Of a DNA stretch of 64,000 nt, positions 2,457 to 37,110 are shown piece after piece. This stretch comes from an uncultured Acidobacteriia bacterium (lineage in GTDB: Bacteria; Acidobacteriota; Terriglobia; Bryobacterales; Bryobacteraceae). A model generated the notes under the pieces. It had not been told where the DNA came from. It did not search any database and was given only the letters and a program-made list of their open reading frames with translations. The stretch's first letter is position 1; each line of letters begins with the position of its first letter. Location: NCBI GenBank assembly GCA_903900705.1, contig CAIUOG010000055.1, positions 1-64,000 of the forward strand, given 5' to 3'. The position numbers and the translations under genes are program-made.

Positions 2457-2474
2457 AGTGGACTCCTCCCAATA

Positions 2475-3829: not shown

Positions 3830-4913
3830 GCTTAGAAGCTTTCGTTTCCTGGACGGGTGAGTAGGAGTCGCCTTCGATCGGGTTGCCTTTGCGGTATAGG
3901 ATGATGAAGCCGAGGATCAGCATGCCGAGCACACTGCCGAGCAGGTATTTCACCGCGTTCAGCTGCGTACCAAGATCAGAAGCGCCGCTGACCAGGCTGT
4001 AGAGCTTGGGCATGTTCATGCCGAGCGCGGGCTGGCCGCCGCCGCCGGAACTCTGTCCGCCCTCCTGCTGCGCGCCGGCGTTGGGATCACTCAGTGTGCC
4101 GGTGCCTTCCACCGTGAACTTCATGACGTTCCCGGTCACGCCCCAGATGGTCGCCTGGGTACGAGGCTCCTGACCGAGGTTTTGCAGCGTGTCGCCCTTA
4201 AAGGTGACGCCGACGGGAGCGATTACACGGGTGTTCCCACCCTTGGTGATGATTTCGTTTTCGAAAATGCCAGGGCTTCGGAAGGGCATGGACCACTGGA
4301 GATCCACGCGGGACTCGCCGGGCTTAATCGGGAAGTCGAGCTTGAACGTATTGGGGCGGGAGCCTGGATCCGGCGCCTTGCGGACCGGCAGACCACCCGG
4401 GGCGAGCGCATTCACTTCCACCTTGCCCTGCGCGAGAGCGGGGAGGGCGAACTGGAGAGTGCCGTGATCGGGGTCGTTCCAGGTCGTCTTACCGTCGTTC
4501 TTAAAGACGTAACTTTCGCTCACGTTCACGTTGCCGTCGGCCGAGGGTTCAAGCAGGATCATGTGCTGATCCACCTTGGCGTCACCCTGCTTCTTCGAGG
4601 ATTCGAAGACCGGGATTTCCACGCCGGTACCGGGCGTGCCGGGAGGCAGCATTTTGTTGTACTGCACGCCGCCATAGACGGCCTGCAGGAGCAGCGGTCC
4701 CGGACCAGCGGGGACTTCTTTCGTGATCTGGAATTTCCCCTGCGCGTCGGTCTTCACGCTGTCGATGAATTGTGGCCCCTGCTGCGTCGGCTGGAAGAGG
4801 GTTACGGTCGCGCCGGCGGCGGGTTTGCCTGTGGTGGAGTTCATCACCACGCCGTCAACGGCAGCGCTGGCCATCAGGCCTGAGAGAAGGAACAGAAGAA
4901 CGGTAAACTTCAT
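3810..4913 (-). CDS. Exported, C-terminally anchored protein with carboxypeptidase-regulatory-like domain, in ccm operon
   Basis: About 367 residues. A signal peptide (MKFTVLLFLLSGLMASA) leads into a beta-sandwich of the carboxypeptidase-regulatory-like/Cna-B type (residues ~20-100, pattern VDGVVMNSTTGKPAAGATV), a second beta-rich part, a Gly/Gln-rich linker, one membrane helix near residue 325 (LLGSVLGMLILGFIIL) and a short cytoplasmic tail. No heme or thiol motif is visible. The ATG at 4911-4913 overlaps the upstream TGA (ATGA), which decides this start over a longer reading. Its position between ccmH and ccmA with overlaps on both sides suggests a role in, or co-regulation with, cytochrome c assembly; function unknown. 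Confidence 0.75.
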   Translation of the reverse strand: MKFTVLLFLLSGLMASAAVDGVVMNSTTGKPAAGATVTLFQPTQQGPQFIDSVKTDAQGKFQITKEVPAGPGPLLLQAVYGGVQYNKMLPPGTPGTGVEIPVFESSKKQGDAKVDQHMILLEPSADGNVNVSESYVFKNDGKTTWNDPDHGTLQFALPALAQGKVEVNALAPGGLPVRKAPDPGSRPNTFKLDFPIKPGESRVDLQWSMPFRSPGIFENEIITKGGNTRVIAPVGVTFKGDTLQNLGQEPRTQATIWGVTGNVMKFTVEGTGTLSDPNAGAQQEGGQSSGGGGQPALGMNMPKLYSLVSGASDLGTQLNAVKYLLGSVLGMLILGFIILYRKGNPIEGDSYSPVQETKASKHARGRG

Positions 4914-5341
4914 TGCGTCACTTCCATCGGCTTGCCGCATTCGCCACAGAACTTCAGGGCTTTTTCGAAGGTCGCGCCGCAGCTGGGGCAGGAGTTCTTT
5001 TTCGGTTCCGGGGCTTTTGGCTCCGGCTTTGGTGCGACAGCCGGTTTGGACGCCGTGGTTAATCCCATCTCCGCCTTGATACGGTCCGTTTCTTCCAGAA
5101 CGCGCGCGAGTTCTTTCTGCAACTGCAACTTGGAGGACTGATAGTCTTCGTCAGAGAGTTTGTCCACGCGGTACTCGAACTGGAGGTCGCGCAGGTTCTC
5201 ATAGATCGACGCCTTCCTTTCGTCCAGATGACGGAATGGGGAAACCGGGGTCGGTTTCGGAAGGTCTTTCATTCGGATGAGCAGCAGGAAACCGATCATT
5301 CCGGCTCCCATCACTGCTCCAACAATCAGGCTCGGGTCCAT
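4910..5341 (-). CDS. Membrane-anchored coiled-coil zinc-ribbon protein in ccm operon (CcmI-like position)
   Basis: 143 residues: an N-terminal membrane helix (SLIVGAVMGAGMIGFLLLI, ~4-22), a charged helical region rich in Glu/Leu (~40-90) with the pattern ENLRDLQFEYRVDKLSDEDY that recalls the N-terminal part of CcmI, a Pro/Lys linker and a C-terminal zinc ribbon CPSCG...CGECG (4 Cys). CcmI is a chaperone that presents apocytochromes to the heme lyase; the helical part and operon position fit a reduced CcmI-like role, whereas the zinc ribbon is atypical. It is followed with a 4-bp overlap by the next gene and sits 16 bp after ccmH. Confidence 0.7.
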   Translation of the reverse strand: MDPSLIVGAVMGAGMIGFLLLIRMKDLPKPTPVSPFRHLDERKASIYENLRDLQFEYRVDKLSDEDYQSSKLQLQKELARVLEETDRIKAEMGLTTASKPAVAPKPEPKAPEPKKNSCPSCGATFEKALKFCGECGKPMEVTQ

Positions 5342-5357
5342 TTGCGGGGAAAGTCTT

Positions 5358-5852
5358 TCAGTCCAGCTTTTCTAAGTCTTTATCGATCTGGGCGCGGTAT
5401 TTCGCCAGCACCGGATCGTCGTCCAGGTGCGCTCCGGCAGTGGCGGGAGTCAGGTGTTTGGTGCCGCGCAGTTTCTTCAGCACAATCCAGAGGACTCCGC
5501 CGCCGGCGAGAAGTCCCAGATAAGGAATTACCCAGAAGAAGGAGTTCGGATCCGCGCGGAAAATTGCCTGGCCGTACTCGCGGATGAAGCTGGCGATCAC
5601 CTGATCGTCATTCATACCCGCGCGCTGCATCTTGTAGATCTTCGTCCGCGCCGGCTTACAAAAGTGGCACTGGCCCGAAGACATATTGCAATTGACGTTT
5701 TCCTGGCAGGCGCCACACTGGCAGGCAATGTGGACGCCGACACGCTTAACGTCGTCACTTTCAATTTCCGATGCCGATTGCGCCAGAGCCGCGACGGCCA
5801 GGGCCAGAACCAGCAACGCGCGCTTCAGCAGTTTAAGCTTCGACCGGTGCAT
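5358..5852 (-). CDS. ccmH: Cytochrome c maturation protein CcmH (atypical cysteine pattern)
   Basis: 164 residues: signal peptide (to about residue 25), a periplasmic CcmH helical domain with cysteines C44, C46, C49, C55, C62 and C65, the conserved C-terminal part of that domain (DDQVIASFIREYG), and a membrane helix near residues 112-133. Canonical CcmH reduces apocytochrome disulfides through a single LRCxxC motif; here a C46-x2-C49 pair is present with an added C62-x2-C65 pair. Start overlaps the end of ccmF by 20 bp. No thioredoxin-like CcmG is encoded in the operon. Confidence 0.85.
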   Translation of the reverse strand: MHRSKLKLLKRALLVLALAVAALAQSASEIESDDVKRVGVHIACQCGACQENVNCNMSSGQCHFCKPARTKIYKMQRAGMNDDQVIASFIREYGQAIFRADPNSFFWVIPYLGLLAGGGVLWIVLKKLRGTKHLTPATAGAHLDDDPVLAKYRAQIDKDLEKLD

Positions 5853-7839
5853 TCTTCTTCGCCATTCCTACAACTTCGGTGCGGGCATAAGACCGCGCGA
5901 CTTTGGCCGGTACCAGCGCCACTAAGGTGCCACCAATCAGGACCAGAACGCCGATCCAGATCCAGTCCACCAACGGGAAGACATAGGCCTGCAGCGTCGC
6001 CTTGTCGCCCTGCCGGGCGGCGTAGTTGATGTAGAGATCTTCGTTCAGGCGGCTGCGCAATGCCACAATTGCCGTGGCCTGCTGAGCGGCCTTATAAAAG
6101 CGCCGGGTGGGTTCGAGCGTCTCGATATGCTGACCGTTTTTCGAAACGTCCAGAATCGCGGTCTCCCACTGATAGTTCGGCGTGTCGCCCTCGGTCAGAT
6201 CCATCACCTTGAGGGTGTAAGCGCCCACCTGCATGACGCCGCCCTTATCCACTTCACCCACAGAGGTCTGGTTAAACGGGTGTCCGCTGTAACCGATGAA
6301 CATGAACACGATACCCATGTGCACCAGATAGCCACCATAGCGGCGCGTGTTGCGATGCGTCAGTTCCACCACGGCCTGGGCGAAGCTGATATTCATCTTT
6401 TCTTTGATCGCCCTCGAGCCGCGGAAGAACTCCATCACGATGGTGGCCGCGACGAAGAAGCAGAGGCTGAGCGAGATGATCGAGTAGGCGTACCGCATGC
6501 CGCCGGCGAGCAGTGCCCCGGCCACAACCAGCATGCCGATACCCGGAATCTGGAAGTTTTTCCGGATGCTTTCGATTGACGTCCGACGCCAGGCGAAGAG
6601 CGGACCAACGCCGGTGAGGAACAGCAGGAACAGGCCGATCGGGACCATCAGGCGGTTAAACCAAACGGCGTCGAGCGAGATTTTTTCGTTCGAGAACTTT
6701 TCCGTGATGACGGGGAAGAGCGTGCCCCAGAGGACGGCGAAGCAACTGGCCAGCAGGATCAGGTTGTTAAACAGGAAGCTCGACTCGCGGGAAACGACGC
6801 TCTCTAGTTCGGCTTCGCTCTTCAGATAGTTCAGGCGATCGATGATGAGCCAGACCACGGCTGCGATGCCGAGCGCGAGGAACGAGACAAAGTATTTGCC
6901 GATGGGCGACTCCGCGAACGCGTGGACGGAGCTCACAATGCCGGAACGAGTGAGGAACGTGCCGAAAATGCACAGGAAGAAGGTGGTGGAGACCAGTACC
7001 ATGTTCCAGACCTTCATCATGCCCTTCTTTTCCTGCATCATGACCGAGTGCAGGAAGGCCGTGCCCGCAAACCAGGGCAGAATCGAGGCGTTTTCCACCG
7101 GATCCCACATCCAGTAGCCGCCCCAGCCCAGAACGTGATACGCCCATGCGGAACCGAGCGCGACGCCGATGCTCTGGAACAGCCAGGTCACCAGAGTCCA
7201 CCGACGGGTCGTCAGAATCCAGCTGTCACCCGGGACTTTTTCGATCAGCGAGGCAATCGCGAAGGCGAACGGAACCGCGAAACCGACGTAGCCCAGATAC
7301 AGGAACGGCGGATGAATCACCATCGCCCAGTACTGCAGCAGCGGGTTCAGGCCCATGCCATCGGCCACGGACGTTACAACTTTATCGACGGCCAACACCT
7401 GGAAGGGGCTCACTACGAGGGTATTCAGCGTGAGGAAGAACAGCTGAATCGCGGAGAGAATCGCGACCACCCAGGGAAGCAGGTTCCGGTGCCGGCCTCG
7501 CGTGGTGAAGATCACAACGGCGCCGTAGGTGGAAAGCAGGAAGCTCCAGAAAAGGAGCGAACCTTCCTGACCACCCCACCAGGCGGCGAACTTGAAGAAC
7601 GGCGGCATGTCGCGGTTGGTGTGCGAGGCGACATAGGCCATTCTGTAGTCGCCCGTAATCAGCGAGTACACCAGAATGCCGGATGCCACGGTCACGAGGA
7701 ACCACACGGCCAGCACAGCGCGCTCGGCGCTTAAGGTGAGAAAGGGTTTCCGTTTCAGCCGTCCGACCACGCTCGCCACAATGGCGTAGAGCGAGATACA
7801 AAGGGCTAGCAGCAGAGCGAGAGCGCCTACATTTTCCAT
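5833..7839 (-). CDS. ccmF: Heme lyase subunit CcmF
   Basis: 668 residues with 14-15 hydrophobic segments, matching the family's ~650. The WWD-type heme motif (GWGGYWMWDPVENAS, about residues 232-250) and the flanking conserved histidines (e.g. VIHPPFLY, about 175) are clear. CcmF transfers heme from CcmE to apocytochrome CXXCH motifs with CcmH and CcmI. It lies 49 bp after ccmE and overlaps ccmH, so ccmE-F-H form one transcription unit. Confidence 0.95.
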   Translation of the reverse strand: MENVGALALLLALCISLYAIVASVVGRLKRKPFLTLSAERAVLAVWFLVTVASGILVYSLITGDYRMAYVASHTNRDMPPFFKFAAWWGGQEGSLLFWSFLLSTYGAVVIFTTRGRHRNLLPWVVAILSAIQLFFLTLNTLVVSPFQVLAVDKVVTSVADGMGLNPLLQYWAMVIHPPFLYLGYVGFAVPFAFAIASLIEKVPGDSWILTTRRWTLVTWLFQSIGVALGSAWAYHVLGWGGYWMWDPVENASILPWFAGTAFLHSVMMQEKKGMMKVWNMVLVSTTFFLCIFGTFLTRSGIVSSVHAFAESPIGKYFVSFLALGIAAVVWLIIDRLNYLKSEAELESVVSRESSFLFNNLILLASCFAVLWGTLFPVITEKFSNEKISLDAVWFNRLMVPIGLFLLFLTGVGPLFAWRRTSIESIRKNFQIPGIGMLVVAGALLAGGMRYAYSIISLSLCFFVAATIVMEFFRGSRAIKEKMNISFAQAVVELTHRNTRRYGGYLVHMGIVFMFIGYSGHPFNQTSVGEVDKGGVMQVGAYTLKVMDLTEGDTPNYQWETAILDVSKNGQHIETLEPTRRFYKAAQQATAIVALRSRLNEDLYINYAARQGDKATLQAYVFPLVDWIWIGVLVLIGGTLVALVPAKVARSYARTEVVGMAKKNAPVEA

Positions 7840-24569: not shown

Positions 24570-25541
24570 CTACCGGTTTCCCTTCCCAAATACCAGTACC
24601 CTCCCGTGCAGCGCGTCCGCCAGATAAACCCGGCCCTTCGCATCCACATGAATGGCATCCACCCGCTGCATCTGGTCAAGGCCGTCGCCTCTCTGTCCAA
24701 ATGATGTCACCGGGTGGCCCGCTTCGTCGTAAATCCGGACCACCATATGACCGGCATCCACCACCGCACAGCCGGACAACCGTTCATCGCACACAAATGG
24801 ACCCGGCACGCGAATGTCGTCCCATCTCGTCTCGCCCCGCAGCTTTCCCGCCGGACTGAATTCCTCCACCAGATTGGGGAAGCTGCCCAGTACATCCACC
24901 TGATTGCGTATTACCGACAACCAGACCGGCTGGTGCATTTCCCGCGGCAAGTGGAAGAAGGCGGTCTGCTCCCCTTCCCGGTTGAGGGTCACGACGCATT
25001 GCTTTCCCGCGTCCAGCACGAACAACGCGCTGCCATCGGCGGACAGCGCCAGGGAGACCGGGGTTTCCAGCAGTCGCCCGGCGCGCCGCGGAATCAGTGT
25101 CCGGTCGAACTCACCGGTCTCGTCAAAGACATATACACCGCCCGTCGCCGCATCCGCCAGATAGATGCGCCCCACCGCGTCTGCGATCATTCCCGAAGGG
25201 GATTGCAACGTGGCCTCACCAACGCGCCGGATCTCGCGGTAGGTACCCGGTTCCGGATCGAAGACATGCACCGATCCGGTTCCGCTGTCAGAGATCCAGA
25301 CCCGACCCTGGCGATCTGTCACCACGGACTGCGGCGAGCCGATGCCCCACGGAAATTCTCCCCGCCCGAACGCCGTATTCGCCGCCTTGCGGTTCAGAAC
25401 CTTCGGCGGATGGATTCCGCCACGGGTCCCAAACGTATATAAATGGCGGTACTGTGTTTCGCCCCGCGATTCCCGTGCCTCACGCTCCTGGCCGGACGCG
25501 GCGAGCACCAGCAACATCAGGCCGAAAGGGACGGTGCGCAT
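24570..25541 (-). CDS. Exported NHL-repeat beta-propeller protein
   Basis: 323 residues: signal peptide (~1-17) and about six NHL blades ([68 protein letters not shown]). The domain is a scaffold or ligand-binding propeller and carries no catalytic motif. The ATG lies 3 bp after the stop of the 12-heme cytochrome gene, so it is the last gene of that operon. Function in electron transfer is inferred from context only. Confidence 0.85.
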
Positions 25542-25544
25542 GGG

Positions 25545-27341
25545 TTAGTAAGTTCGGGGATTGTGATTGTCGCCATGGCAGACCAGATAGCAGCCGCGGG
25601 TCGCTCCGGTGTTGAAATACCCGTAGTACGTCGTGGCACGGCTTACAACGCCGGTATCGAAATTGATCATGGCATGGTTGGCCGATGAGTTTCCGCCGAT
25701 GACGCCGTGCGGGTCGTGGCAGGTGGTGCATCCGTAACTGCGGTGATTGTCGTGGGGGCTGATGTTGGCGACAGTCGTGAGATTGTGGCACTTATTGCAC
25801 ATTGCCGACGCGGCATTGGAGTTTCCGGAGGAGCCCCCCAACGTCTCCTGATACAGCGTGAATTGCAGTAAATGCGGGAAAGTGGAGCCGTGCGGACCAT
25901 CGGGCCCGGTGCTGCTGATGGTGCGTGAGGCGTTGTTATTGTGGCAGTCGGTGCAGTAGATCAGGGATGTCTTCGTGAGGGGCCGGCTGGTGATATTCGC
26001 GCCATTGATATCAGTCACATACGGGCGCAGGGAGGAATTGCCGGTGTTCGCCACGCTGTTCCCCATGACGTTGTGCCCGATTGTGGAAGTGAATTTCAGC
26101 CGCAGGTTGTACTGGTCGGGAGGTGTCGGGGGCGGAGCGGTGTAGGTTGCCGGCAGAGGGCCTTCGAGATAACGTCCCGCCGTGCGTCCGTAAGAGCTGG
26201 TGGTAGGTTTGTTCGTGCTGTCCGCGTGGCACTTGAGACAAACCTGATACTCCTTCGTGGCCGGGACCTGGGAGCCCGTCGTGTCATATCCGCTGACGCC
26301 CGTCAGACTGAGCGGCAGCGCGGGTGGAAGCGGAAAGCCCGGCTGCGCCTGAGCCGCGTGATCGTTATGGCAGTCTTCGCACTCGGCGTGGCGCGTCGAG
26401 TTCACAGGCAGCGTCTCCGCCGCATCGTGTGCCCCGGTGACAGTCAAAGTGGGGTGCGAATATGTTTTACTGAACTCCGCCATCACATTGAGCGGCGCGG
26501 GCGAGACGTTCGCACCACTGTGGCAGGGGCTGCAATTCGCCTCTTCCTTCGCACGCAGATCCCGCGGTCCCGTGCCGTTCTGATGCGCCCCGTGACAGTT
26601 GGAACAGGCATTCGCGGCCACCGTGCCGTAAGCGCCAAATCCCGCAGTGGTGGGCACGGTGCTGGTCACGGTGGCGTGCGCTCCGCTGGTCCATCCGTTC
26701 AGAATATTGGGTTGCGGGCGAGTGGAATCATGGCATGCGGTACAGAGCGCGCCCGCGGCATTGGACCGGACCAGAAAATTCTTCGCCACGGCATCCTTGT
26801 TCTGCACATGAGGGTCGTGGCAGGTGGTGCATTCCACCTTTCCGCTGACCAGCAGCACGGTCGGATCCTTGCTCGCGGGACTGCTGCCGAAAAGTCCCGA
26901 GAATAGCTGACCGTTGTCCACGGGAGTCATGCTCACCGGGTGACTGGTTGCCAGATTGGCGCCGAAGACATCCCCCGGAGTCATGGAACCCGTTGTGGTG
27001 ATGGTCCCCTGCGCCACCGTCAGACCTACTGCAACTGTGCCGTCATGGCAGCTCAGACAGAGCTTTGAGGAACCGGCCGAAGGGGTCTGCGTGCCGGAGA
27101 CATAAGTGCTGCTCGTATAAGTAGTATAGGTCTGGACCGACAGTTTGTGATCCCACAGGGGAGTCACATTCGGCGTGATGTTGTGTGGAGCGTGGCAGAT
27201 AATACACGCGTCTATGGCCGCCGATTTCACCGGCCCTGTTCCGGCGGCAGTCAGGTCATGCTGACTCCCGATCACCGCGATCTTACTGCTCGCGCCGTAA
27301 GCACACACCGGGATCAGCAGCAGAGCCACACACAACCTCAT
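25545..27341 (-). CDS. Dodecaheme c-type cytochrome (secreted)
   Basis: 598 residues with signal peptide (~1-16). Heme motifs in order: CIICH, CLSCH, CTTCH, CTACH, CSNCH, CSPCH, CEDCH, CLKCH, CTDCH, CNKCH, CTTCH and a final CX3CH (CYLVCH), i.e. eleven standard plus one spaced variant. Ser/Thr/Gly-rich linkers are typical of exported outer-membrane or extracellular cytochromes. Its first ~205 residues repeat the layout of the tetraheme protein at 30258 (HDL, CHAPHN, LW, CLSCHDG, SHPV, CHDPH, NFLVRSN). Start has GGAGG 8 bp upstream and overlaps the NHL gene stop by 4 bp. Confidence 0.93.
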   Translation of the reverse strand: MRLCVALLLIPVCAYGASSKIAVIGSQHDLTAAGTGPVKSAAIDACIICHAPHNITPNVTPLWDHKLSVQTYTTYTSSTYVSGTQTPSAGSSKLCLSCHDGTVAVGLTVAQGTITTTGSMTPGDVFGANLATSHPVSMTPVDNGQLFSGLFGSSPASKDPTVLLVSGKVECTTCHDPHVQNKDAVAKNFLVRSNAAGALCTACHDSTRPQPNILNGWTSGAHATVTSTVPTTAGFGAYGTVAANACSNCHGAHQNGTGPRDLRAKEEANCSPCHSGANVSPAPLNVMAEFSKTYSHPTLTVTGAHDAAETLPVNSTRHAECEDCHNDHAAQAQPGFPLPPALPLSLTGVSGYDTTGSQVPATKEYQVCLKCHADSTNKPTTSSYGRTAGRYLEGPLPATYTAPPPTPPDQYNLRLKFTSTIGHNVMGNSVANTGNSSLRPYVTDINGANITSRPLTKTSLIYCTDCHNNNASRTISSTGPDGPHGSTFPHLLQFTLYQETLGGSSGNSNAASAMCNKCHNLTTVANISPHDNHRSYGCTTCHDPHGVIGGNSSANHAMINFDTGVVSRATTYYGYFNTGATRGCYLVCHGDNHNPRTY

Positions 27342-28315
27342 TCCGACTTCCTCCGGAAGTGAAATACCTGCACACGGCGGTTCAGCGAATCCGCCACATA
27401 CATCACATTACGGCTGTCGATGGAAATACCGGAAGGCAACTGAAACTGGCCCGCCTGATTTCCGGTCGAACCGAAATAGTACAGCAGGTGGCCCTGCTGG
27501 TCGAATACCTGAACGGTCTCAAACAATGCATCCACCACATAGAGGTTTCCTTCGCTGTCGACGGCGATCCCCTTGGGCCGGTTCAGCGTGCCCGACGTGT
27601 TCCCCGGCTCGCCGAACGCGCTGACAAACTCACCCTCAGTGGTCAGGGTCTGGACGCGGAAATTCATGGAATCGACCACATGGAGGCGACCGGCGGATAA
27701 CGTGAGAGACGTCGGAAAATTGAACTCTCCTTCCGCCCTGCCACGCTTTCCGATCACACGTACCAGCGCGCCATCGGTACGAAAAACCAGGACCTGATGG
27801 CGCAGCGTATCGGCCACATACAAACGCCGCGCCGCGCGATCGAGAGCCATGCCCGTAGGGCGTTGCAGAGCAGTCGGCCCGGTACCGCCGATAAACCGGA
27901 GGAACTTGCCCCTGGTATCGAACACCAGGATTTTCCGGCGCACGGAATCCGAAACGTAAATATCGTCGTTCGAATCGCACGCCACATCGATCGGTGACTC
28001 AAATGTACTGCCACGCGGACCTTTCAGAAACTGGTATTTCTGCTTCTCGAAGTCATAAACGTGGACCCCCTTCTGCCCAGGGTCCGCTACCATCAAGCGT
28101 CCTCTGCTGTCCTGCGCGACCCCATACGGTCTTGTAACCTCCGGACGGTCCGGCGGCCCCACAATCCACTCGAAGACCTTCGGCAGAAAACTACGTGGCC
28201 GGGTGAACTCCCGGACCGAGGGAATCGTGCGCCAATACTCGATGCCGGCATGCGTGGTGGCGCCCGGTAACGGCAGGCAGGCAAGGAACCACAGGATGGC
28301 GGCGCGGGTTTTCAT
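27338..28315 (-). CDS. Exported NHL-repeat beta-propeller protein
   Basis: 325 residues: signal peptide (~1-19) and six NHL blades such as GVAQDSRGRLMVADPGQKGVHVY, GMALDRAARRLYVADTLRHQVLVF and GIAVDSEGNLYVVDALFETVQVF. Both ends overlap its neighbours by 4 bp (beta-barrel upstream, 12-heme cytochrome downstream), so its product is made in step with them. Likely periplasmic or extracellular; may act as a scaffold of the cytochrome complex (inference). Confidence 0.87.
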   Translation of the reverse strand: MKTRAAILWFLACLPLPGATTHAGIEYWRTIPSVREFTRPRSFLPKVFEWIVGPPDRPEVTRPYGVAQDSRGRLMVADPGQKGVHVYDFEKQKYQFLKGPRGSTFESPIDVACDSNDDIYVSDSVRRKILVFDTRGKFLRFIGGTGPTALQRPTGMALDRAARRLYVADTLRHQVLVFRTDGALVRVIGKRGRAEGEFNFPTSLTLSAGRLHVVDSMNFRVQTLTTEGEFVSAFGEPGNTSGTLNRPKGIAVDSEGNLYVVDALFETVQVFDQQGHLLYYFGSTGNQAGQFQLPSGISIDSRNVMYVADSLNRRVQVFHFRRKSE

Positions 28316-30204
28316 AGAAGCTTCGCGTTCCTTGAAATTCGCAGATACACACGACCGCGACGTGTCTCGGGATAGGTAGTGAAGGTCGTGAAGATCTGGC
28401 TCGAATCGGTGAATCCCATGTCCATCTGAATGCGCCGAAAATGGTAGGTCAGGTGCATGTCCAGAATCTGGAAGTCATTATTAATCACGCCATCGAGATG
28501 TTGCAGGGAATGCGTCCACAGCAATGAAATCTCCAGCTTCCTGACGGGCGTCGCGTGCAGCGTAATTGCCAGAGCACGCAGGTCGCTCGGCACGGGCCGG
28601 AGCACCCCGGCCAGCACAGAGCCCACCGCAATGTCACCGTAAAGCTGACTGTACAGCGGCAGAGAACTCCCCAGATTACTGTTGAGCGTGGCCGACATCT
28701 GCAACAGCGGATGCTCGATACCGAAGCGCCCCGTATAGCCTTTGCTCAGAAACGCACTGCCGCCGCTTTCGAAATTTCCCTGCTGCCAGCCGCCACCGGC
28801 GCGCACGCCCAGGCGTCCAAACAGATGCTGTGAGATGCTGCCTTCCGCCGAAAAGCTTCGGTCCGTGACCGGCTGCATATTCTGAAGGCTCTCGCTGTTC
28901 CCGTGCACCGAACCATCAAACTGCGTTGCGCCCGCTTTGCCTGCCTGAAACGAGACGAGATAGTTATCTCCGGCGAGCCGCCCCGACTGGCCTGTGACAG
29001 AGCCGCTGCCCAGTTCCCGGGCATATTGCCCCGAGACGTTCAGCCACTCAAATCTCTTGCTGTAAGTAACTCCGGCCGAGGCAGATGTGTAACTCCCGTT
29101 CACGGCGCCATCGGCGGGCGGAGTAAACACGCTGCTATGGTCCGCGCGCCCGTAGAGGCTGAGCTCTTTCGTCACCTGAAACGAAGTGGTGCCATTGAAA
29201 TTGAGACTGCCGATAGAGCGTTCGAGCAGGGCGAGCGTGGACGTGTCAGGCAAGACAGTTCCGGGGCCACCTGTTCCGAGTCCGCCGACGACGGAATTCA
29301 GCAACTGCCCGGATACGTTCGACGAATAGCCGGCATGCAACGCCGTCTTCCAGCGCCTCCGCTGAAATAGCCGGATATTCCCGTTTGCATAACTCGTCGT
29401 CAGATTAATGGGCATTCCCAGCAACACATTTGCGGTGGACTGCCGCCCGCCATCGAGATAAACTTCGGAATCGGTCCATACCGTGCGACGCGCCGATCCC
29501 TGATTCTGGTAAAGACGCTGCTGTAGCGCCGAGGTATTAATGACTCCCGCTGAGGGCGCGAACAGATCCGATTTCTGAGTCTGAATGTGACTGAAGCCCT
29601 CAATATCCCAGCCGTGCCAGTAATACTTCATGTCGGAGTTGAAGTGGTTCACGTGTGACGCGTAATCAGGGAGTCCCGCAATGCCGGAGTTCGACCCGAC
29701 CGAGCCGATACCCCAGTCGATCGTGATCGCCGGAAGGTCATGATACTTCACATTCCACGTCAGGCCCAAATCACTGTTTCGTGTTGCCAGGCGATAGGCC
29801 GACACCTGTGACAGGCTTCCGAAGTAGACGTCGGAAACGCGCAGATTCGAATAACGGAAGGTAAGAGGCGAGAGTCTCCGGAGCGCGGTGATGCGCATGG
29901 AGATGCCGTTACCGCCCTGAAAGCCCGCCTCACTGGCCTGCGGGCCGTAAACGAATTCCGGCTGCAGAGTGAAATTCAGAAAGTCCGGACTCATGTAATA
30001 ACCGTTAACGTCCAGAGAGATGCTGGCCGGCACAAAGTTGACCTTCTGATTTACCTGGCCGCGGGTCCAAGTCTCATAGTAGCCTGACGAGAAAACGCCA
30101 GACACGGTAAGTGGCACCGTCTGCGCGATTATCGCCGACGGCGACAGCAGACAGGTCAGGGTCAATAGAATTCTTTTGTCGAAATCAGTCATCTTCAGGT
30201 CCAT
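28312..30204 (-). CDS. Outer-membrane beta-barrel protein, candidate porin of a porin-cytochrome conduit
   Basis: 630 residues. Signal peptide ends near residue 28 (SAIIAQ), then a long run of amphipathic beta-strands with aromatic girdles and Asn/Ser/Gly turns (about 26 strands expected), and a terminal strand RVYLRISRN near the end. No heme motif and no CxxC. Size resembles MtrB/PioB/OmbB porins, which hold a multiheme cytochrome across the outer membrane; homology to these could not be verified. It lies between the tetraheme cytochrome gene (53 bp upstream) and an NHL gene (4-bp overlap). A second ATG 12 bp in is an alternative start. Confidence 0.8.
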   Translation of the reverse strand: MDLKMTDFDKRILLTLTCLLSPSAIIAQTVPLTVSGVFSSGYYETWTRGQVNQKVNFVPASISLDVNGYYMSPDFLNFTLQPEFVYGPQASEAGFQGGNGISMRITALRRLSPLTFRYSNLRVSDVYFGSLSQVSAYRLATRNSDLGLTWNVKYHDLPAITIDWGIGSVGSNSGIAGLPDYASHVNHFNSDMKYYWHGWDIEGFSHIQTQKSDLFAPSAGVINTSALQQRLYQNQGSARRTVWTDSEVYLDGGRQSTANVLLGMPINLTTSYANGNIRLFQRRRWKTALHAGYSSNVSGQLLNSVVGGLGTGGPGTVLPDTSTLALLERSIGSLNFNGTTSFQVTKELSLYGRADHSSVFTPPADGAVNGSYTSASAGVTYSKRFEWLNVSGQYARELGSGSVTGQSGRLAGDNYLVSFQAGKAGATQFDGSVHGNSESLQNMQPVTDRSFSAEGSISQHLFGRLGVRAGGGWQQGNFESGGSAFLSKGYTGRFGIEHPLLQMSATLNSNLGSSLPLYSQLYGDIAVGSVLAGVLRPVPSDLRALAITLHATPVRKLEISLLWTHSLQHLDGVINNDFQILDMHLTYHFRRIQMDMGFTDSSQIFTTFTTYPETRRGRVYLRISRNAKLL

Positions 30205-30257
30205 CTGAGTTAAAGGCCCGGGTGGACGGCAAGTCAGCCGCCCACCCGATCATCGGC

Positions 30258-30911
30258 CTACAGGTGACAGGTGGTGCAGTGCGAGGCCGAATTCGCCTGG
30301 CGAAGGTAGTTTGTGTTGACGTCGTTGTGTGGATCGTGACAGGTCGCGCATTGCATCGTGTTGCTCGATCCATACAGGGGCAGCGTGGAGGAGACCGTGG
30401 CAACGGCCTGAAGCGAAGAATTCTTAGTCGGATCATACGGCAGGTTCACCGGATGATCGTTGGTCAGACCGAGTGATTCGAAGGCGCCGGTTCCAAACGA
30501 CGCACGGGAGCCTACCTGGTTCTTCGTCTGCATGGCAGGCGAGAAACTGGAGGTGACGCCATCGTGACAACTCAGACACAGCAGCGAGTACATACGAACA
30601 TCGGTCGATGTCGTCAGTGCGCTGCCGCCCAGTTCAACAGCTTTGTTCTGCATGGTATTCGAGTCATAAACCCCGAATGTGTTGGAAGATGCCGGAAAAC
30701 TGCGGGACCAAAGCAGGATGAGACCAGTGCCTTGCGTTCCACCGTTGGCGGAGGAGCCATTGTGCGGCGCGTGGCAGGACTTGCAACCATTACCGCCGAT
30801 ATCGTGAGTCGACCCGGCAAGGCCGGATTTGGGCAGGTTCGGCGCAGCGCCCGGCATGGAAATCGTTCCCATCCCCAAGAGGATGGCAAGTGTGAAATAC
30901 CTGTACTTCAT
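30258..30911 (-). CDS. Tetraheme c-type cytochrome, OmcE-like layout
   Basis: 217 residues from the ATG at 30909-30911, chosen because GAAGGAGAG lies 8 bp before it and the signal peptide (MKYRYFTLAILLGMGTISM) starts there; a longer reading has no such site. Four CXXCH motifs: CKSCH, CLSCH, CATCH and the terminal CTTCH. The mature part has nine histidines: four proximal plus STHD, CHAPH, NDHP, CHDPH and SHCTTCH, enough for bis-His ligation of all four hemes. Short, Ser/Thr/Gly-rich and without a membrane anchor. The layout resembles Geobacter OmcE-type filament cytochromes (recollection, not a search). Confidence 0.9.
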   Translation of the reverse strand: MKYRYFTLAILLGMGTISMPGAAPNLPKSGLAGSTHDIGGNGCKSCHAPHNGSSANGGTQGTGLILLWSRSFPASSNTFGVYDSNTMQNKAVELGGSALTTSTDVRMYSLLCLSCHDGVTSSFSPAMQTKNQVGSRASFGTGAFESLGLTNDHPVNLPYDPTKNSSLQAVATVSSTLPLYGSSNTMQCATCHDPHNDVNTNYLRQANSASHCTTCHL

Positions 30912-31004
30912 GAATAATCTCTCCTTCAGAATTGAAAAGCACAATCAGTTTTTTATTGCGTTCCGGAACTTCGTCCGAACACGCGTTGACCGGGGATGAA
31001 TGCG

Positions 31005-32108
31005 TTACTTTGCGGCCTTCACCTCCTTTTTATCCGCTGCTTCCGGCTGTGGCAGGTACTGGAATACCTGAATCCGCCCATGGAACATCTCGGTTGTATA
31101 GATGCGGTCCTGTGGATCAATCCACAGTCCTGTCACCAGCGCGAATTCGCCGCGCCCCGCGCCAAGTGTTCCCACCGCAAGCAAAGGCTGACCTTCGCGG
31201 GAAAGGATCTGAAAGTTATTGAATTCCGCATCCGCCACGTAGACGTGCCCCTGAGAATCGACCGCGATGCCCTTCGGTCGGATGAACTCGCCGGGCCGAT
31301 CCCCCTGCGCGCCAAAAGACCGCAGAAACCGACCGTTGGTGTCCAGAACCTGCACTCTGTAATTGCCGGTATCGGCAACGTAGACGTTGCCCTCGTGGTC
31401 TACCGCTACGTTCGTTGGCCCGGTGAAACGGCCCTTTTCTTTCTTTCCGGGAGTACTGGGACCACCCATTTCGCCTAATAACTCCATGGTCTTCGTATCG
31501 AAGACAACAATCTTGTTTTGCTTTGCATCCGCCACATAAAGTTTGTTGCGGCTCTTATCGATGGCAATGCCGCCGGGACGACCCAGAGCGCTGGTCCCGA
31601 AGTGGGCAATCGGCTGCCCGTTCGAAGCGAAACAAACAATGGTATGAAGGTCGGCGTCAGAGACAAACAGGCGGTCTGTGCTGTCGAGAGCGACTCCGGC
31701 TGGTAAAGACAGAGGGGCCCTACTGCTCGACTCGCGCGTCTCTACGATTCGGTTTACCGGATCGATCACATAGACCAGCTTCAGTTCCGTGTCGGCGGTA
31801 TAGATGCGCCCCCGGGAATCCGTCGCGATGCCGTAAGGTTTCCGCAGTTCCTGCTTCTCATCCGCCGTCTTGGTGCCGGTCACCTTATCGAGCCAGCTGT
31901 TTTTCTTAGCTTCCGGTTTTTTGACTTTTGCCATGTCGGTATATTCCGCGAGCCAGCGAACGCGCGGAGGATCGGGCGGCAGGGGCCAGGTAAGATCGGC
32001 GGTGGCGGTGCCCGGGATGACCGGACCTTTTTTGTTGTCGGCCGCGCGCAGGAGCAGGCAAAGGACGCCAAGCATGATCAGGGCATGCAGGCAGGAACTG
32101 AATTTCAT
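31005..32108 (-). CDS. Exported NHL-repeat beta-propeller protein
   Basis: 367 residues. Signal peptide (~1-22), a Pro-rich stretch (LTWPLPPDPPRVRWLAEYTD) that recurs in NHL proteins associated with multiheme cytochromes in other phyla, then six NHL blades (GIATDSRGRIYTADTELKLVYVID, GIAIDKSRNKLYVADAKQNKIVVFD, GIAVDSQGHVYVADAEFNNFQIL) and a Lys-rich C-terminus. Its ATG overlaps the stop of the heptaheme gene by 4 bp. Confidence 0.88.
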   Translation of the reverse strand: MKFSSCLHALIMLGVLCLLLRAADNKKGPVIPGTATADLTWPLPPDPPRVRWLAEYTDMAKVKKPEAKKNSWLDKVTGTKTADEKQELRKPYGIATDSRGRIYTADTELKLVYVIDPVNRIVETRESSSRAPLSLPAGVALDSTDRLFVSDADLHTIVCFASNGQPIAHFGTSALGRPGGIAIDKSRNKLYVADAKQNKIVVFDTKTMELLGEMGGPSTPGKKEKGRFTGPTNVAVDHEGNVYVADTGNYRVQVLDTNGRFLRSFGAQGDRPGEFIRPKGIAVDSQGHVYVADAEFNNFQILSREGQPLLAVGTLGAGRGEFALVTGLWIDPQDRIYTTEMFHGRIQVFQYLPQPEAADKKEVKAAK

Positions 32109-32752
32109 TTATGACACCTCAGACAAAGGGATTCGAAAGTTTCGGTCTCTGTGACCAGTAACTGGCTGCTCTTATCGGTGCTGTGCGGGTCATGGCAGGT
32201 CAGGCAGCTGATCGCCGGCCATTCCTTGTCTTCCTTTCGGGACACGGGATGATTGGAAACGGGATGACCGCGCCCTTCGCTAAGGGCGATCGTCTTTGCG
32301 GACCCGCTTGCGCCCGCCAGGTGACATCCCAGACACAGCTTGTTTGGCTCAGCGGTTTTCAGCATGAGCCCCCCACTGGCGTGGGGATCGTGGCAGAATG
32401 TGCAATCCTGGGCGACCGGGGCATGCACAAATTCCTTCGCAGCCTTCCCGGCATGGCAGGCCGAACACAACTCCGTCACTTTGGCCGCAAGGTAGAACTC
32501 CCCGGGCTTGGGCTTTGGATTCTCGCCATGCGTCACGTGGCAGGCGTCACATCCGCCCCCCATAGCCGGATGGAGATTCTTCGCAGACGTGGCGGGTCGC
32601 AGCAGTGTGTGGCATCCCAGACAGGCCTCATCCGTGCCGATGTTGCCCGTCGCGGCGCCCGCGGCAGCCAGCAAGAGGCTAACCAGCGAGAACAGACGGC
32701 ATATCACGAACGGCGATATCGGCATAGAACGGGAAGCGCGCCTTCCTGGCAT
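32105..32752 (-). CDS. Heptaheme c-type cytochrome
   Basis: 215 residues with seven CXXCH motifs (CLGCH, CDACH, CSACH, CTFCH, CLGCH, CLTCH, CLRCH) and several CHDPH segments of the doubled-CXXCH family. The start at 32752 has AAGGA seven bases upstream; an internal ATG (32723-32725) lacks a ribosome site but begins the signal-peptide core (LFSLVSLLLAAAGAATG). The protein is probably periplasmic. It is the first gene of the minus-strand unit and lies next to a divergent promoter region. Confidence 0.9.
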   Translation of the reverse strand: MPGRRASRSMPISPFVICRLFSLVSLLLAAAGAATGNIGTDEACLGCHTLLRPATSAKNLHPAMGGGCDACHVTHGENPKPKPGEFYLAAKVTELCSACHAGKAAKEFVHAPVAQDCTFCHDPHASGGLMLKTAEPNKLCLGCHLAGASGSAKTIALSEGRGHPVSNHPVSRKEDKEWPAISCLTCHDPHSTDKSSQLLVTETETFESLCLRCHK

Positions 32753-32892: not shown

Positions 32893-34827
32893 ATGCGGAG
32901 ACCTGCCGGAATTCGCCTGGCACCAGGCATTCTCCTCATAGTGGCGGCGAGTCTTCAGGCTCAGATTTCACCGGGTCCGCTGTCCCTCGCCCATGCTTCA
33001 CTCGAAGGCGTCACGAAGTGCGCCAACTGTCACGACTTCGGCGCGGGAACCAAGCGATTTCGCTGTCTGGAATGTCATTTGGAAATCAAACAAAGGCTCG
33101 ACACCCACACCGGGTTTCACACGCGCGCCGTCAAACCCCTTCCCGGCGAGGCCGACTGCGCACGTTGTCACATGGAGCATAACGGACAGTCATTCGCCCT
33201 GACCCGGTTGGATCGGCGACACTTCGATCACGTCGCGCAGACCGGCTTTGCGCTCGAAGGAAAGCACCTCGGGCAGAAGTGCGAGTCCTGTCACAACGCA
33301 AAGAACCTTCCCTCGGAAGCTCGCTCCGTTATTAAGGTGAAAGATCCGGCGCGCAGCTTTCTGGGCCTGAGGCGCGACTGCGCAGGTTGCCATAAGGACA
33401 TACACGCCGGCCAGTTGGGAGCCGCCTGCTCCAACTGCCACAATCAGGACTCCTGGTCGCAGGCGCCGGGCTTCAATCACGCCCGCACGCCGTTCCAACT
33501 CACCGGACTGCATCAGTCTGTCGCCTGCGCAAAGTGCCACCTGCCGCAGCGGCAGGCTTCGGCGGAAAAGCAACTGCTTTTCAAGGGGCTATCCTTTTCG
33601 GGTTGCCAATCCTGCCACAACGATCCCCACCGCGGCGGCTTCAAAGACGCGAAAGTACGTGGCGGTTGCGAGACCTGTCACACTACCGCGGGCTGGAAGA
33701 GCAACCGCCCCGCGTCCGGCTTCGACCACGCGAATACGAAGTTTCCGCTAACCGGGGCTCACGCGGCGAAGGCGTGTGCGCAGTGTCATAAAGACAGCGA
33801 TTTCCACCGCCCGATTCCGCACGACAAGTGCGGCGACTGCCATCAGGATGTTCACAGCGGCCAGTTCACCGCCCGGCCCCAGGGCTCCGATTGCGCCTCG
33901 TGCCACAACGACATATCTTTCAAACCGCCTCTGTTTAACCGCGAAACCCACCGCACCGCCGCTTTTCCGCTCACCGCCATGCATGAGCGAGTCGCCTGCG
34001 CCGCCTGTCACAAAGCCGAAGGAAAGGCGACCGTCTGGGAGACCCGACTGTTGCAATGCGCCGGTTGTCACCAGGATGTTCACGCGGGCCAGTTCGAGGC
34101 GGCGCCCTGGACCAACCAGTGTTCTCTCTGCCACAACCAGTCCGGCTTCGACCGTAACTCTTTCTCGGTTGAACGTCACGCTATGACCAGGTTCGCACTC
34201 AAGGGCCGTCATGAAAAAGTCTCTTGTGAATCCTGTCACAAAGTACTCAATCCCGCTCCCGGCTTCCTCGCGAAAGTGAGTACGCCCGCCCGGCAATTCC
34301 GGTTCCCCTCCCGCGCCTGCAATACCTGCCACGCCGATCCGCATCGGCAGGGGCAAAAAGTCGCAGCCTGTGAAAATTGCCACACGGAGGCCTCGTGGAC
34401 TTCGTCTTTGCCTTTCGATCACAAGACGACGCGTTTTCCGCTTACGGGACGACATGTCCGCGTCAATTGCAACCAGTGTCATAACCCGGTCAGCCCTGGC
34501 GGCAGCGCCATTGCAAAGCTGGCGCCGGCGTTTTCTTCCACGCCAACGCTCTGTTCCGGCTGCCACAAGGACCCCCACGGAGGCCAGTTCCGCAAGGGCC
34601 AGGGGCGCCCGGATGCGCCCGAAGAGGAATGTTCCAATTGCCACACCACCTCCGGATGGGGCGGGGCCGATTTTGACCATGAAAAAACCCGCTATCCGCT
34701 CGACCGGGCACATATGAACGTTCCCTGCGCAAAGTGCCACAAGAATGCTCTCGGCGCGGAACGGGATTCCTCCGCCCGCATTCGGATGTTCCGGGGAACG
34801 GCCATGGAGTGCGTCTCATGCCACTGA
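32893..34827 (+). CDS. 23-heme c-type cytochrome built from triheme repeats
   Basis: 644 residues; the ATG at 32893 precedes a signal peptide (RLAPGILLIVAASLQAQ), and a TTG ten codons upstream has no signal advantage. It carries 23 CXXCH motifs, the last one at the extreme C-terminus (CVSCH then stop). After four N-terminal hemes, hemes 5-22 fall into six consecutive triheme units of about 75-87 residues, each CxxCHxDxHxGQF ... CxNCH ... FxHxxTxFPLTGxH ... CxxCH. No membrane anchor other than the signal; likely a long periplasmic wire. Followed with a 10-bp overlap by a membrane protein gene. Confidence 0.95.
   Translation: MRRPAGIRLAPGILLIVAASLQAQISPGPLSLAHASLEGVTKCANCHDFGAGTKRFRCLECHLEIKQRLDTHTGFHTRAVKPLPGEADCARCHMEHNGQSFALTRLDRRHFDHVAQTGFALEGKHLGQKCESCHNAKNLPSEARSVIKVKDPARSFLGLRRDCAGCHKDIHAGQLGAACSNCHNQDSWSQAPGFNHARTPFQLTGLHQSVACAKCHLPQRQASAEKQLLFKGLSFSGCQSCHNDPHRGGFKDAKVRGGCETCHTTAGWKSNRPASGFDHANTKFPLTGAHAAKACAQCHKDSDFHRPIPHDKCGDCHQDVHSGQFTARPQGSDCASCHNDISFKPPLFNRETHRTAAFPLTAMHERVACAACHKAEGKATVWETRLLQCAGCHQDVHAGQFEAAPWTNQCSLCHNQSGFDRNSFSVERHAMTRFALKGRHEKVSCESCHKVLNPAPGFLAKVSTPARQFRFPSRACNTCHADPHRQGQKVAACENCHTEASWTSSLPFDHKTTRFPLTGRHVRVNCNQCHNPVSPGGSAIAKLAPAFSSTPTLCSGCHKDPHGGQFRKGQGRPDAPEEECSNCHTTSGWGGADFDHEKTRYPLDRAHMNVPCAKCHKNALGAERDSSARIRMFRGTAMECVSCH
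33379..34740 (+). repeat. Six tandem triheme repeat units within the 23-heme gene
   Basis: The conserved HxGQF/HxGGF segment after the first heme of each unit falls at codons 33403, 33628, 33853, 34081, 34342 and 34576, giving spacings of 75, 75, 76, 87 and 78 residues. Each unit holds three CXXCH motifs and one FxLTGxH segment. The repeats are diverged at DNA level, so they are old internal duplications rather than a recent array. Confidence 0.9.
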
Positions 34828-35768
34828 TACAGGAACGTCCCGTCACCCCGGCGTCGCGTCCGGGAAAAGTCCGGTCAGATACGCGACAGCCAGTTACCCT
34901 GCTAGTCGCGGTTGCTCTGGCGGTGATTCTGGTCGCCGCACTGGTCGTCACCGGCTTTCCCTACTACACGCTGCCGCCCGAGGAAAGGCCATTGTCACCG
35001 CTCCATGCGCTACTGCGCTCCAGCGGAATCATCGGCCTGAAATTGGGTATCCTCGGCGTTCTGCTGTTTGGCGTCCTGTTCCTTTATCCGCTGCGGAAGC
35101 GCTGGAAATGGCTGGCCGGAATCGGCAACACCCGCCGGTGGCTGAACGCTCATGTCTTTGTCGGAATCACCGCGCCCATCGTCATCACGTTCCATGCCGC
35201 ATTTAAGTCGCACGGGCTTGCCGGCGTTGCGTACTGGATCATGGTCATCGTGGCCTGCAGCGGCTTCGTGGGCCGCTATCTCTATGCGAAAATTCCCCGC
35301 CGCCTCAACGCGGTGAAACTCGACGCCGCTGAACTTGAAGCAGTGACAGCCACTCTCACTTCCCAGGTCGGCGCACAGGGCCTTTTCAGCGCCGCTGACT
35401 TCCTCCCGCTTCTCAATATCCCTTCGGCCGAGGAAATCCGTTCCCTGAACCTCCTCCATGCCTGGTGGATCATGCTACGTCTCGATGTCGCCCGTCCGTT
35501 CCAGGTGGGCCGCCTTCGCCGTCGCGTCCTCGCCGGTTCCCGCAAGTGGACCACCCTCGGCGGACTGCTTTCCTCCCATGACCAAACCGTGGAATCCATC
35601 GTCAGCAACGTCCGCCGGCTGGCCGGGCTCAGAACCGCCACCGCTTTTCTGCACAAAACCGAGCGCGTCTTCCACCTTTGGCACGTCATCCATCGGCCCT
35701 TCAGCCTGTCTTTTGTCGTGCTGGTGGTGATTCACGTGTGCGTCGCGTTATCCGTAGGAGTTCGCTGA
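34818..35768 (+). CDS. Integral membrane diheme cytochrome b-like protein
   Basis: 316 residues from the ATG at 34818-34820 (overlapping the upstream gene by 10 bp); a longer upstream reading would lie inside the cytochrome gene. Helices at ~27-48, 68-90, 111-130, 139-153 and 292-313. Two helices each carry a H-x13-H pair (H112/H126 and H292/H306), the pattern of transmembrane diheme ferric reductase/NOX-type proteins; no flavin domain is attached, but the next gene supplies a flavoprotein. Likely passes electrons from the cytoplasm or quinone pool to the 23-heme cytochrome (inference). Confidence 0.8.
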   Translation: MPLIQERPVTPASRPGKVRSDTRQPVTLLVAVALAVILVAALVVTGFPYYTLPPEERPLSPLHALLRSSGIIGLKLGILGVLLFGVLFLYPLRKRWKWLAGIGNTRRWLNAHVFVGITAPIVITFHAAFKSHGLAGVAYWIMVIVACSGFVGRYLYAKIPRRLNAVKLDAAELEAVTATLTSQVGAQGLFSAADFLPLLNIPSAEEIRSLNLLHAWWIMLRLDVARPFQVGRLRRRVLAGSRKWTTLGGLLSSHDQTVESIVSNVRRLAGLRTATAFLHKTERVFHLWHVIHRPFSLSFVVLVVIHVCVALSVGVR

Positions 35769-35775
35769 AGCCGCC

Positions 35776-37110
35776 ATGCCGGATACCTGGGGCTTCTACG
35801 CCTTCTACTCCGTAATTCTGCTGATCCCGATGGTCTGGTACATCCGCCGGCAGTTGCATCGCGAGAAACAGGTCCGCGAGGCCGCGGCCAAAGGCCAGGT
35901 GTTTACCGAAGCGCCGCTTGGGTTTCATCCGCAGATTGACGTCTCCCATTGCATCGGCTGCCAGGGCTGCACCTCCGTTTGTCCGGAAGGGCAGGTGCTC
36001 GGCATGGTGGGCGGAAAGGCAGCCGTGGTCAGGCCGTGGCGTTGTATCGGGCACAGCCTCTGTTCGGAAGCCTGCCCGGTGGGGGCCATCAGGATGGTGC
36101 GCGCTGCGCCCGGAATCAATGCCCGGCTACCCTTTCTCACCGAGGAGTTCGAAACTTCTGTTCCCAACCTTTACATCGCCGGCGAACTCGGAGGTCTGGC
36201 CCTGATCCGGAATGCCGTGCAACAGGGCGCCGAATGCATTGATGTCATTGCCGCCCGGCTCGCCGCCGCGCCCGACCGCGGCGCCGCGGCGATTACAGAC
36301 GTGATTATCGCCGGCGCCGGACCCGCCGGCATCAGCGCCGGCCTTCGAGCTCTTGAACTCGGACTGAGCTTCCTCGTCCTGGAACGCGATGAGGTGGGCG
36401 GGACGATCACCAAATATCCCCGCCAGAAGCTGGTCATGACGACAACGTTCAGCTTCCCGCTCTACCCACCGGAAAAGAAACGGCAGTTATCCAAGGAATA
36501 TATCGTCGATTTCTTCCGGACCGTGACAGCACGACCCGATTTCTCCATTCGCGCTCACGAAGAAGTGAAGAATATCCACGCCAACCCGGACGGTACGCTC
36601 ACCGTATCCACAGGCACTTCCCACTACCAGTGCCGCGCCGTGATTCTCGCCATGGGCCGCGCCGGTTCACCCAACAAGCTGGGAATCCCGGGCGAGGAAC
36701 TCGCCAAGGTGATGTACCGGCTGATTGAGGCGGATCACTATACGAACCGGAGAATTCTGGTCGTCGGCGGTGGCGACAGCGCGGTGGAGGCGGCCATGGG
36801 CCTCGCCATGCAACCGGGCAACAAGGTCACCCTCTCCTACAGGCGCAGTGAGTTCGCCCGTATCAAAGAGCGGAATGCGCAGAGGCTCGAAAGTGAGATT
36901 CGTGCGCGCCGAATTGAAGTTCTCTTCAATTCAGCACCGGTCGCGATCACCCAGGACACCGTCTCAATTCAAACGCCGGAAGGTATCCTTGAACTACCCA
37001 ACGACTACGTCTGGGTCTTCGCCGGCGGCGCGGCACCGGACGACTTCCTGAAGAAGATCGGCATCCACTACGGCCCCCGGGATCTGACGCGGGAAACCGT
37101 GCTCAGCTAA
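35776..37110 (+). CDS. Membrane-tethered ferredoxin/FAD-NAD(P) oxidoreductase fusion
   Basis: 444 residues: an N-terminal membrane helix (~8-22), an Fe-S domain with one canonical motif C59-x2-C62-x2-C65-x3-C69-P and a second C90-x2-H93-x2-C96-x3-C100-P in which His replaces one Cys, then a thioredoxin-reductase-like flavoprotein with FAD (IIAGAGPAGISAG, ~179-191) and NAD(P) (LVVGGGDSAVEAAMG, ~330-344) Rossmann motifs. The redox-active CxxC of true thioredoxin reductase is absent. Starts 7 bp after the b-type membrane protein and is probably the cytoplasmic electron input module (inference). Confidence 0.88.
   Translation: MPDTWGFYAFYSVILLIPMVWYIRRQLHREKQVREAAAKGQVFTEAPLGFHPQIDVSHCIGCQGCTSVCPEGQVLGMVGGKAAVVRPWRCIGHSLCSEACPVGAIRMVRAAPGINARLPFLTEEFETSVPNLYIAGELGGLALIRNAVQQGAECIDVIAARLAAAPDRGAAAITDVIIAGAGPAGISAGLRALELGLSFLVLERDEVGGTITKYPRQKLVMTTTFSFPLYPPEKKRQLSKEYIVDFFRTVTARPDFSIRAHEEVKNIHANPDGTLTVSTGTSHYQCRAVILAMGRAGSPNKLGIPGEELAKVMYRLIEADHYTNRRILVVGGGDSAVEAAMGLAMQPGNKVTLSYRRSEFARIKERNAQRLESEIRARRIEVLFNSAPVAITQDTVSIQTPEGILELPNDYVWVFAGGAAPDDFLKKIGIHYGPRDLTRETVLS

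Follow-up and report, generated by a model that had tools for sequence, protein, structure and literature searches.

A predicted diheme membrane protein and its adjacent flavoprotein as a candidate split NAD(P)H:multiheme-cytochrome-c oxidoreductase of Acidobacteriota

By inspecting a 64,000-nucleotide stretch of contig CAIUOG010000055.1 from an uncultured Acidobacteriia bacterium (assembly GCA_903900705.1; the whole stretch is referred to as the window) we identified two adjacent genes, MEM and FLV, that probably specify a two-subunit inner-membrane NAD(P)H:multiheme-cytochrome-c oxidoreductase. The proposed enzyme would be split, NOX-like by analogy, open to exchangeable dehydrogenases, and would feed porin-cytochrome conduits. 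MEM is a membrane protein, the start of which overlaps by 10 nt the 3' end of the gene for a 23-CXXCH cytochrome (MHC23); the ATG of FLV, a ferredoxin/flavin oxidoreductase, follows seven bases after the MEM stop. Table 1 lists these genes and their features.

MEM contains exactly two H-x13-H pairs, H112/H126 in transmembrane helix (TM) 3 and H292/H306 in TM5. Both pairs are kept in all 121 distinct MEM sequences (93 close, 18 intermediate and 10 distant relatives), down to ~25% identity, and since all four histidine columns are invariant across these homologues the pattern is not due to chance. The distant tier is homologous to MEM by profile comparison (hhalign 99.4%, E 1e-21). In an AlphaFold2 model (15 sequences; mean predicted local distance difference test score 81, predicted template modelling score 0.68) the pairs are held by helices 105-127 and 278-315. 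The original prediction for this DNA had thus placed the twofold pattern in membrane helices correctly. Hydropathy and the model give MEM five helices rather than six, and the loop that joins TM4 to TM5, predicted to be cytosolic, is enlarged. Charge counts over relatives gave 5.2 lysines plus arginines in the 15 residues of the loop between TM2 and TM3, and a still larger number in the loop between TM4 and TM5 (Table 1). We infer that both loops lie on the cytosolic side; their positive charge implies that TM3 and TM5 each begin at the cytosol with one His and end near the periplasm with the other. H112 and H292 are predicted to be the ligands of a cytosolic-side heme b and H126 and H306 those of a periplasmic-side one, and the large loop is presumably the docking site of the dehydrogenase.

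MEM has no CXXCH motif and, as originally stated, no flavin domain of its own in Pfam and NCBIfam scans. The MEM of the window reached no Pfam or NCBIfam cut-off, and single-sequence and profile searches against the PDB returned no meaningful match for it. Judged by its sequences, MEM is a family without existing annotation and with invariant histidines. Relatives are present in 24 of 101 genomes of the same family and in 63 of 396 Acidobacteriota genomes. From genome_contigs we obtained 133 MEM loci and kept 80 for analysis; the record titles of these are Acidobacteriota with one exception, probably mislabelled. The record concerned (L106, CALQCC020000017.1) is titled Bordetella parapertussis, carries an Acidobacteriota cassette and is almost certainly a mislabelled metagenome-assembled genome.

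The association of FLV with MEM is close. In 69 of the 78 loci with room for it FLV lies immediately 3' of MEM on the same strand, and six further fetched loci contain it at another place, in most cases nearby and in convergent orientation. A search for adjacent homologues in other genomes had been proposed at the outset, and these counts exclude that the two genes never co-occur. Across the 396 Acidobacteriota genomes, full-length FLV (>430 bits) was present in 29 of the 41 with a MEM match above ~170 bits and in none of the 355 others; the same-family sample gave 13/16 and 0/85. The corresponding Fisher p values, 9e-35 for the phylum and 7e-14 for the family, are uncorrected for phylogeny, and genome counts are not independent events. 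In both samples the FLV genomes form a strict subset of the MEM genomes. One genome (G157) has only an FLV match shorter than full length. No fusion of MEM and FLV in a single open reading frame (ORF) occurs in the 80 loci; an apparent 656-residue fusion in L031 and L055 was rejected as an out-of-frame start within MEM.

We also compared MEM genomes that lack FLV. In all 11 examined from the intermediate tier, an FNR-type gene unrelated to FLV (FAD_binding_6, NAD_binding_1, Fer2) lies near MEM (L223, L227, L229, L231, L232 and L239-L244); its domains were scanned in L229, L231 and L232, and the remaining loci were matched to these by BLAST. The window's own genome holds a paralogue cluster (L046, 5348-11379) comprising, in this order, a NuoEF fusion, a cNMP/NuoG-like Fe-S protein, a distant MEM-like protein and a decaheme cytochrome, possibly a complex-I-like NADH to cytochrome c device. 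Among distant relatives, a cNMP/4Fe-4S protein and the MEM domain form one ORF (L216-L218, L245-L250), and in 7 of 7 loci examined (L218, L245-L250) this fusion adjoins an octaheme c-ferredoxin-FLV fusion, which appears to span the membrane as a redox protein whose single chain bears both c-hemes and flavin. In L219, FAD/NAD, cNMP and Fe-S domains are joined next to a MEM-like gene. These independent arrangements all put MEM between a cytoplasmic NAD(P)H/Fe-S protein and a multiheme c cytochrome. As to the octaheme fusions themselves, they are single ORFs of 1061-1175 residues with eight CXXCH, a ferredoxin and an FLV-like domain (4105-7290 in L218); that of L218 also has an FHA domain, the Pfam domain check covering L218 only.

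FLV itself has Fer4, Pyr_redox_3 and Pyr_redox_2 domains and its own membrane helix, in line with the separate FAD, NAD(P) and Fe-S gene expected seven bases downstream. It is not of the FNR type of NOX: we assign FLV to the YpdA/TrxR-type flavoproteins, with a circularly permuted FAD domain. The permutation is indicated by the FAD-domain tail motif, which stands N-terminal to the Rossmann fold; when the tail was moved to the C-terminus the YpdA score rose from 169.6 to 190 bits and the profile coverage from 260 to 288 of 316, and matches in the PDB lengthened likewise. FLV carries the GGGDSA motif plus an invariant Arg. It scores 174.5 bits against TIGR04018 (YpdA), below the cut-off of 339.9. 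FLV of the window reads GAGPAG where YpdA has its active-site Cys (GxGPCG); among 87 distinct FLV sequences this Ala is present in 81, and a His stands in the second cluster motif in 82. These two replacements make bacillithiol reductase activity unlikely, and electrons probably leave FLV through Fe-S. A subgroup (L036, L037, L038 and L040) has an extra segment, zinc-ribbon-like (CPxC...CPxCG), inserted after the membrane helix and ahead of the ferredoxin domain.

On the outer side, most loci with flanks of sufficient length have MHC23 in the cassette; 49 of 54 intact homologues contain exactly 23 CXXCH, and we presume MHC23 to be the electron acceptor of MEM. Relatives mostly have MHC23 first, then a giant repeat cytochrome (with 16 to 64 CXXCH where the gene is intact), a 555-residue barrel-like protein and a 270-residue exported protein, followed by MEM and FLV; a TPR protein often comes last. 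The cassettes of L039, L069, L034 and L044 have giant repeat cytochromes with 57-74 CXXCH per ORF and 1.5-1.8 thousand residues, and the 74-motif ORF, of L069, may lack its true start. The locus of the window's own clade lacks the genes for the giant cytochrome, the barrel and the 270-residue protein. A divergent operon lies on the other side, with equivalent NHL/multiheme/barrel-like operons in L055-L058, L060, L061 and L063; it resembles an outer-membrane conduit that brings its own NHL scaffold, and is likely the outer conduit paired with MEM-FLV in this clade. Outer-membrane barrel assignments were made by eye. The inner MEM-FLV module is constant and the outer module is exchanged. Genes resembling those for cytochrome c maturation proteins of CcmA/B/C and CcmF type (by eye) lie at 1776-7839 on the reverse strand of the window.

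Table 1. Features of the MEM-FLV locus and its surroundings (positions in the window)
Feature	Position	Strand	Description
MEM	34818..35768	+	316 residues, ATG 34818; membrane protein with five predicted helices, putative carrier of electrons over two b hemes
TM3 His pair of MEM	35151..35195	+	codons of H112 (35151-35153) and H126 (35193-35195), x13
TM5 His pair of MEM	35691..35735	+	codons of H292 (35691-35693) and H306 (35733-35735), x13
Enlarged TM4-TM5 loop of MEM, predicted cytosolic	35283..35666	+	residues 156-283, ~128 residues; family mean 18.5 lysines plus arginines (charge counts)
FLV	35776..37110	+	444 residues, ATG 35776; membrane-anchored ferredoxin/flavin oxidoreductase, predicted NAD(P)H substrate
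N-terminal membrane helix of FLV	35788..35844	+	residues 5-23, hydrophobic, predicted N-out/C-in; helix 2-39 in model
Two-cluster ferredoxin domain of FLV	35929..36078	+	second motif C-x2-H-x2-C-x3-C, His93 replacing second Cys
FAD-domain tail motif of FLV, ETSVPNLYIAGE	36142..36270	+	displaced N-terminal to Rossmann fold
FAD (GAGPAG) and NAD(P) (GGGDSA) domains of FLV	36292..37077	+	YpdA active-site Cys is Ala
MHC23	32893..34827	+	exported c-type cytochrome, 644 residues, 23 CXXCH, signal-peptide-like N-terminus
Divergent outer-envelope operon	24570..32752	-	5-heme, NHL, 4-heme, 630-residue barrel-like, NHL, 11-heme and NHL proteins

In the mechanism we propose, FLV, held by its single helix, would oxidise cytoplasmic NAD(P)H at the FAD, as its domains suggest, and single electrons would then cross two putative Fe-S clusters for which the binding sites are in place. 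MEM would take these electrons at the cytosolic heme b (H112/H292) and pass them to the periplasmic heme (H126/H306), the invariant ligands being presumably loaded with heme. From MEM the path would lead, if gene order is a guide, to MHC23, encoded by the upstream gene that overlaps MEM, and then to an outer conduit, itself exchangeable, that is formed by the giant cytochrome and barrel in most relatives and by the NHL/multiheme/barrel operon in the window. MEM would be the constant membrane link, and both the dehydrogenase on its inner side (FLV, FNR-type, or NuoEF plus cNMP/Fe-S) and the outer conduit would be replaceable. The net result would be that cytoplasmic reductant, bypassing quinones, is vented to an extracellular acceptor, for example metal oxides or humics. 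We infer the topology, electron order, direction and quinone independence of this chain, and gene order and topology make outward flow to the 23-heme protein plausible. A bolder proposal, possible but doubtful in our view, is that MEM represents a phylum-wide new diheme b class, non-homologous to the ferric-reductase family, which couples interchangeable NAD(P)H dehydrogenases (YpdA-type, FNR-type and NuoEF-type) directly to giant multiheme conduits and so gives soil Acidobacteriota an outlet for electrons to the outside that needs no quinone and is possibly gated by second messengers (cNMP, FHA).

Several points weigh against an NAD(P)H:cytochrome oxidoreductase of this kind. Outward flow over two hemes dissipates membrane potential, so that the energetic benefit is unclear, and it is not obvious why those hosts that are aerobic heterotrophs would have to dispose of electrons outside the cell. 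In five loci (L058, L102, L122, L041 and L043) there is no recognised dehydrogenase near the cassette, and for three intermediate-tier ones (L215, L221 and L226) FLV is encoded only at another place in the genome. The potential of the His-containing FLV cluster is hard to predict. The AlphaFold model of MEM has neither a significant Foldseek match nor a convincing fold by VIA-align among solved structures, this second comparison being confined to Foldseek's list. A cytochrome b561 fold (4o6y) was tried for MEM and rejected, its Z of 5.5 lying within the tool's stated noise.

The ancestry of MEM can be read in more than one way. Somewhat against the odds, MEM may be kin of the FRD/NOX (PF01794) family, which would be compatible with the oxidoreductase proposed here. 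Its putative His ligands are in TM3 and TM5, as in FRD, and the H-x3-G-x9-H register aligns. Sub-threshold PF01794 matches occur in 8 of 15 MEM members (best 4.7e-5), and one homologue (L152) exceeds the cut-off with 30.9 versus 28 bits. However, the MEM of the window has no PF01794 match at E 1, hhalign against PF01794 proteins of relatives gave 0.4-34%, and MEM has five helices where FRD has six, together with the 128-residue loop. The spacing had been called exactly that of NOX, which is nearly right: the four FRD histidines sit in TM3 and TM5, and NOX2 has x13 in TM3 (101/115) but x12 in TM5 (209/222) (PMC3591440). The split transmembrane oxidoreductase of the original prediction is well supported by adjacency, co-occurrence, FNR-type replacement and Fe-S fusions; homology to the ferric-reductase/NOX family is unproven.

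It is unlikely that MEM is a quinol oxidase or quinone reductase, comparable to the b-type part of CbcL, that joins the quinone pool to MHC23 and leaves FLV a side function or an NAD(P)H-quinone link. The known inner-membrane inputs to extracellular electron transfer, CymA, CbcL and ImcH, are quinol oxidases, CbcL having a two-heme b-type domain (PMC6295460), and 6 of 15 MEMs show sub-threshold matches to PF01292 (cytochrome b561/Ni-hydrogenase b subunit). The window MEM scores 11.1 bits against this family, below the cut-off of 30.1, and hhalign against PF01292 proteins of relatives gave 1-2%; moreover the unrelated NAD(P)H dehydrogenases that substitute beside MEM, and the Fe-S domains fused to its relatives, would be superfluous for a quinol enzyme. 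We regard as very improbable an inward chain, in which MHC23 takes electrons from donors outside the cell, Fe(II)/Mn(II) or others, and passes them via MEM to FLV to form NAD(P)H. The electrons of Fe(II)/Mn(II) have too positive a potential for NAD(P)+ reduction, and inward movement opposes the membrane potential. The NuoEF and FNR-type partners of MEM commonly oxidise NAD(P)H. Two-heme chains are nevertheless reversible in principle, direction is unreadable from sequence, and related conduits are bidirectional (PMC6295460).

Reviewed inner-membrane entry points to extracellular electron transfer (CymA, CbcL, ImcH) draw on quinol (PMC6295460); direct entry from NAD(P)H, as we propose for MEM-FLV, would alter the energy bookkeeping and offer a route to vent reductant at times when the quinone pool is in the reduced state. 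In soil, Acidobacteriota rank among the most abundant bacteria, and the substrates of most of their multiheme cytochromes are unknown (PMC8100337). A description of the MEM-FLV cassette in Acidobacteriota was not found in the open-licence literature, an absence that is weak evidence. Thanks to the fusions and the swapped partners, the wiring of MEM can be predicted from genomes, and since cultured strains such as Occallatibacter savannae AB23 (L124) and Acidobacteria AB60 carry the cassette, it is amenable to testing.

Among known systems, FLV resembles the bacillithiol disulfide reductase YpdA/Bdr and TrxR (7a7b, 7a76) in the fold of its FAD and NADPH domains (~27% identity), but it is without the active-site Cys, its FAD domain is permuted, and a ferredoxin domain and membrane helix are added. 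CbcL, ImcH and CymA are placed, like MEM, between the inner membrane and a multiheme chain (PMC6295460), yet these quinol oxidases have c-hemes of their own, whereas MEM lacks c-hemes and is partnered by NAD(P)H dehydrogenases. With NOX and ferric reductases MEM shares two bis-His pairs in TM3/TM5 and, in our proposal, one-electron transfer from NAD(P)H to the outside (PMC3591440). NOX proper carries FNR-type FAD/NADPH domains on the same chain; the dehydrogenase of MEM is a separate, non-homologous polypeptide, or FNR-type but still separate in L223, L229, L231 and L232, and the sixth helix is absent. MsrQ-like proteins with NAD-binding or NuoF partners feed flavinylated acceptors (PMC8238504), and their clusters likewise combine a modular NAD(P)H dehydrogenase, a diheme membrane protein and an exported acceptor; beside MEM, however, the presumed acceptor is a multiheme c cytochrome rather than an ApbE-flavinylated protein, and MEM is not PF01794 by cut-off. 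MsrQ plus Fre mimic the NOX architecture, and MsrPQ-Fre (YedZ/MsrQ, PF01794) has, as we propose for MEM-FLV, a flavin-free membrane heme protein, a separate NAD(P)H flavoprotein and a periplasmic redox acceptor (PMC5676040). In contrast to that system, MEM combines all four histidines with five helices and a large loop; FLV, its partner, has Fe-S sites and a permuted YpdA-type FAD domain, and the presumed acceptor is a 23-heme cytochrome, not MsrP.

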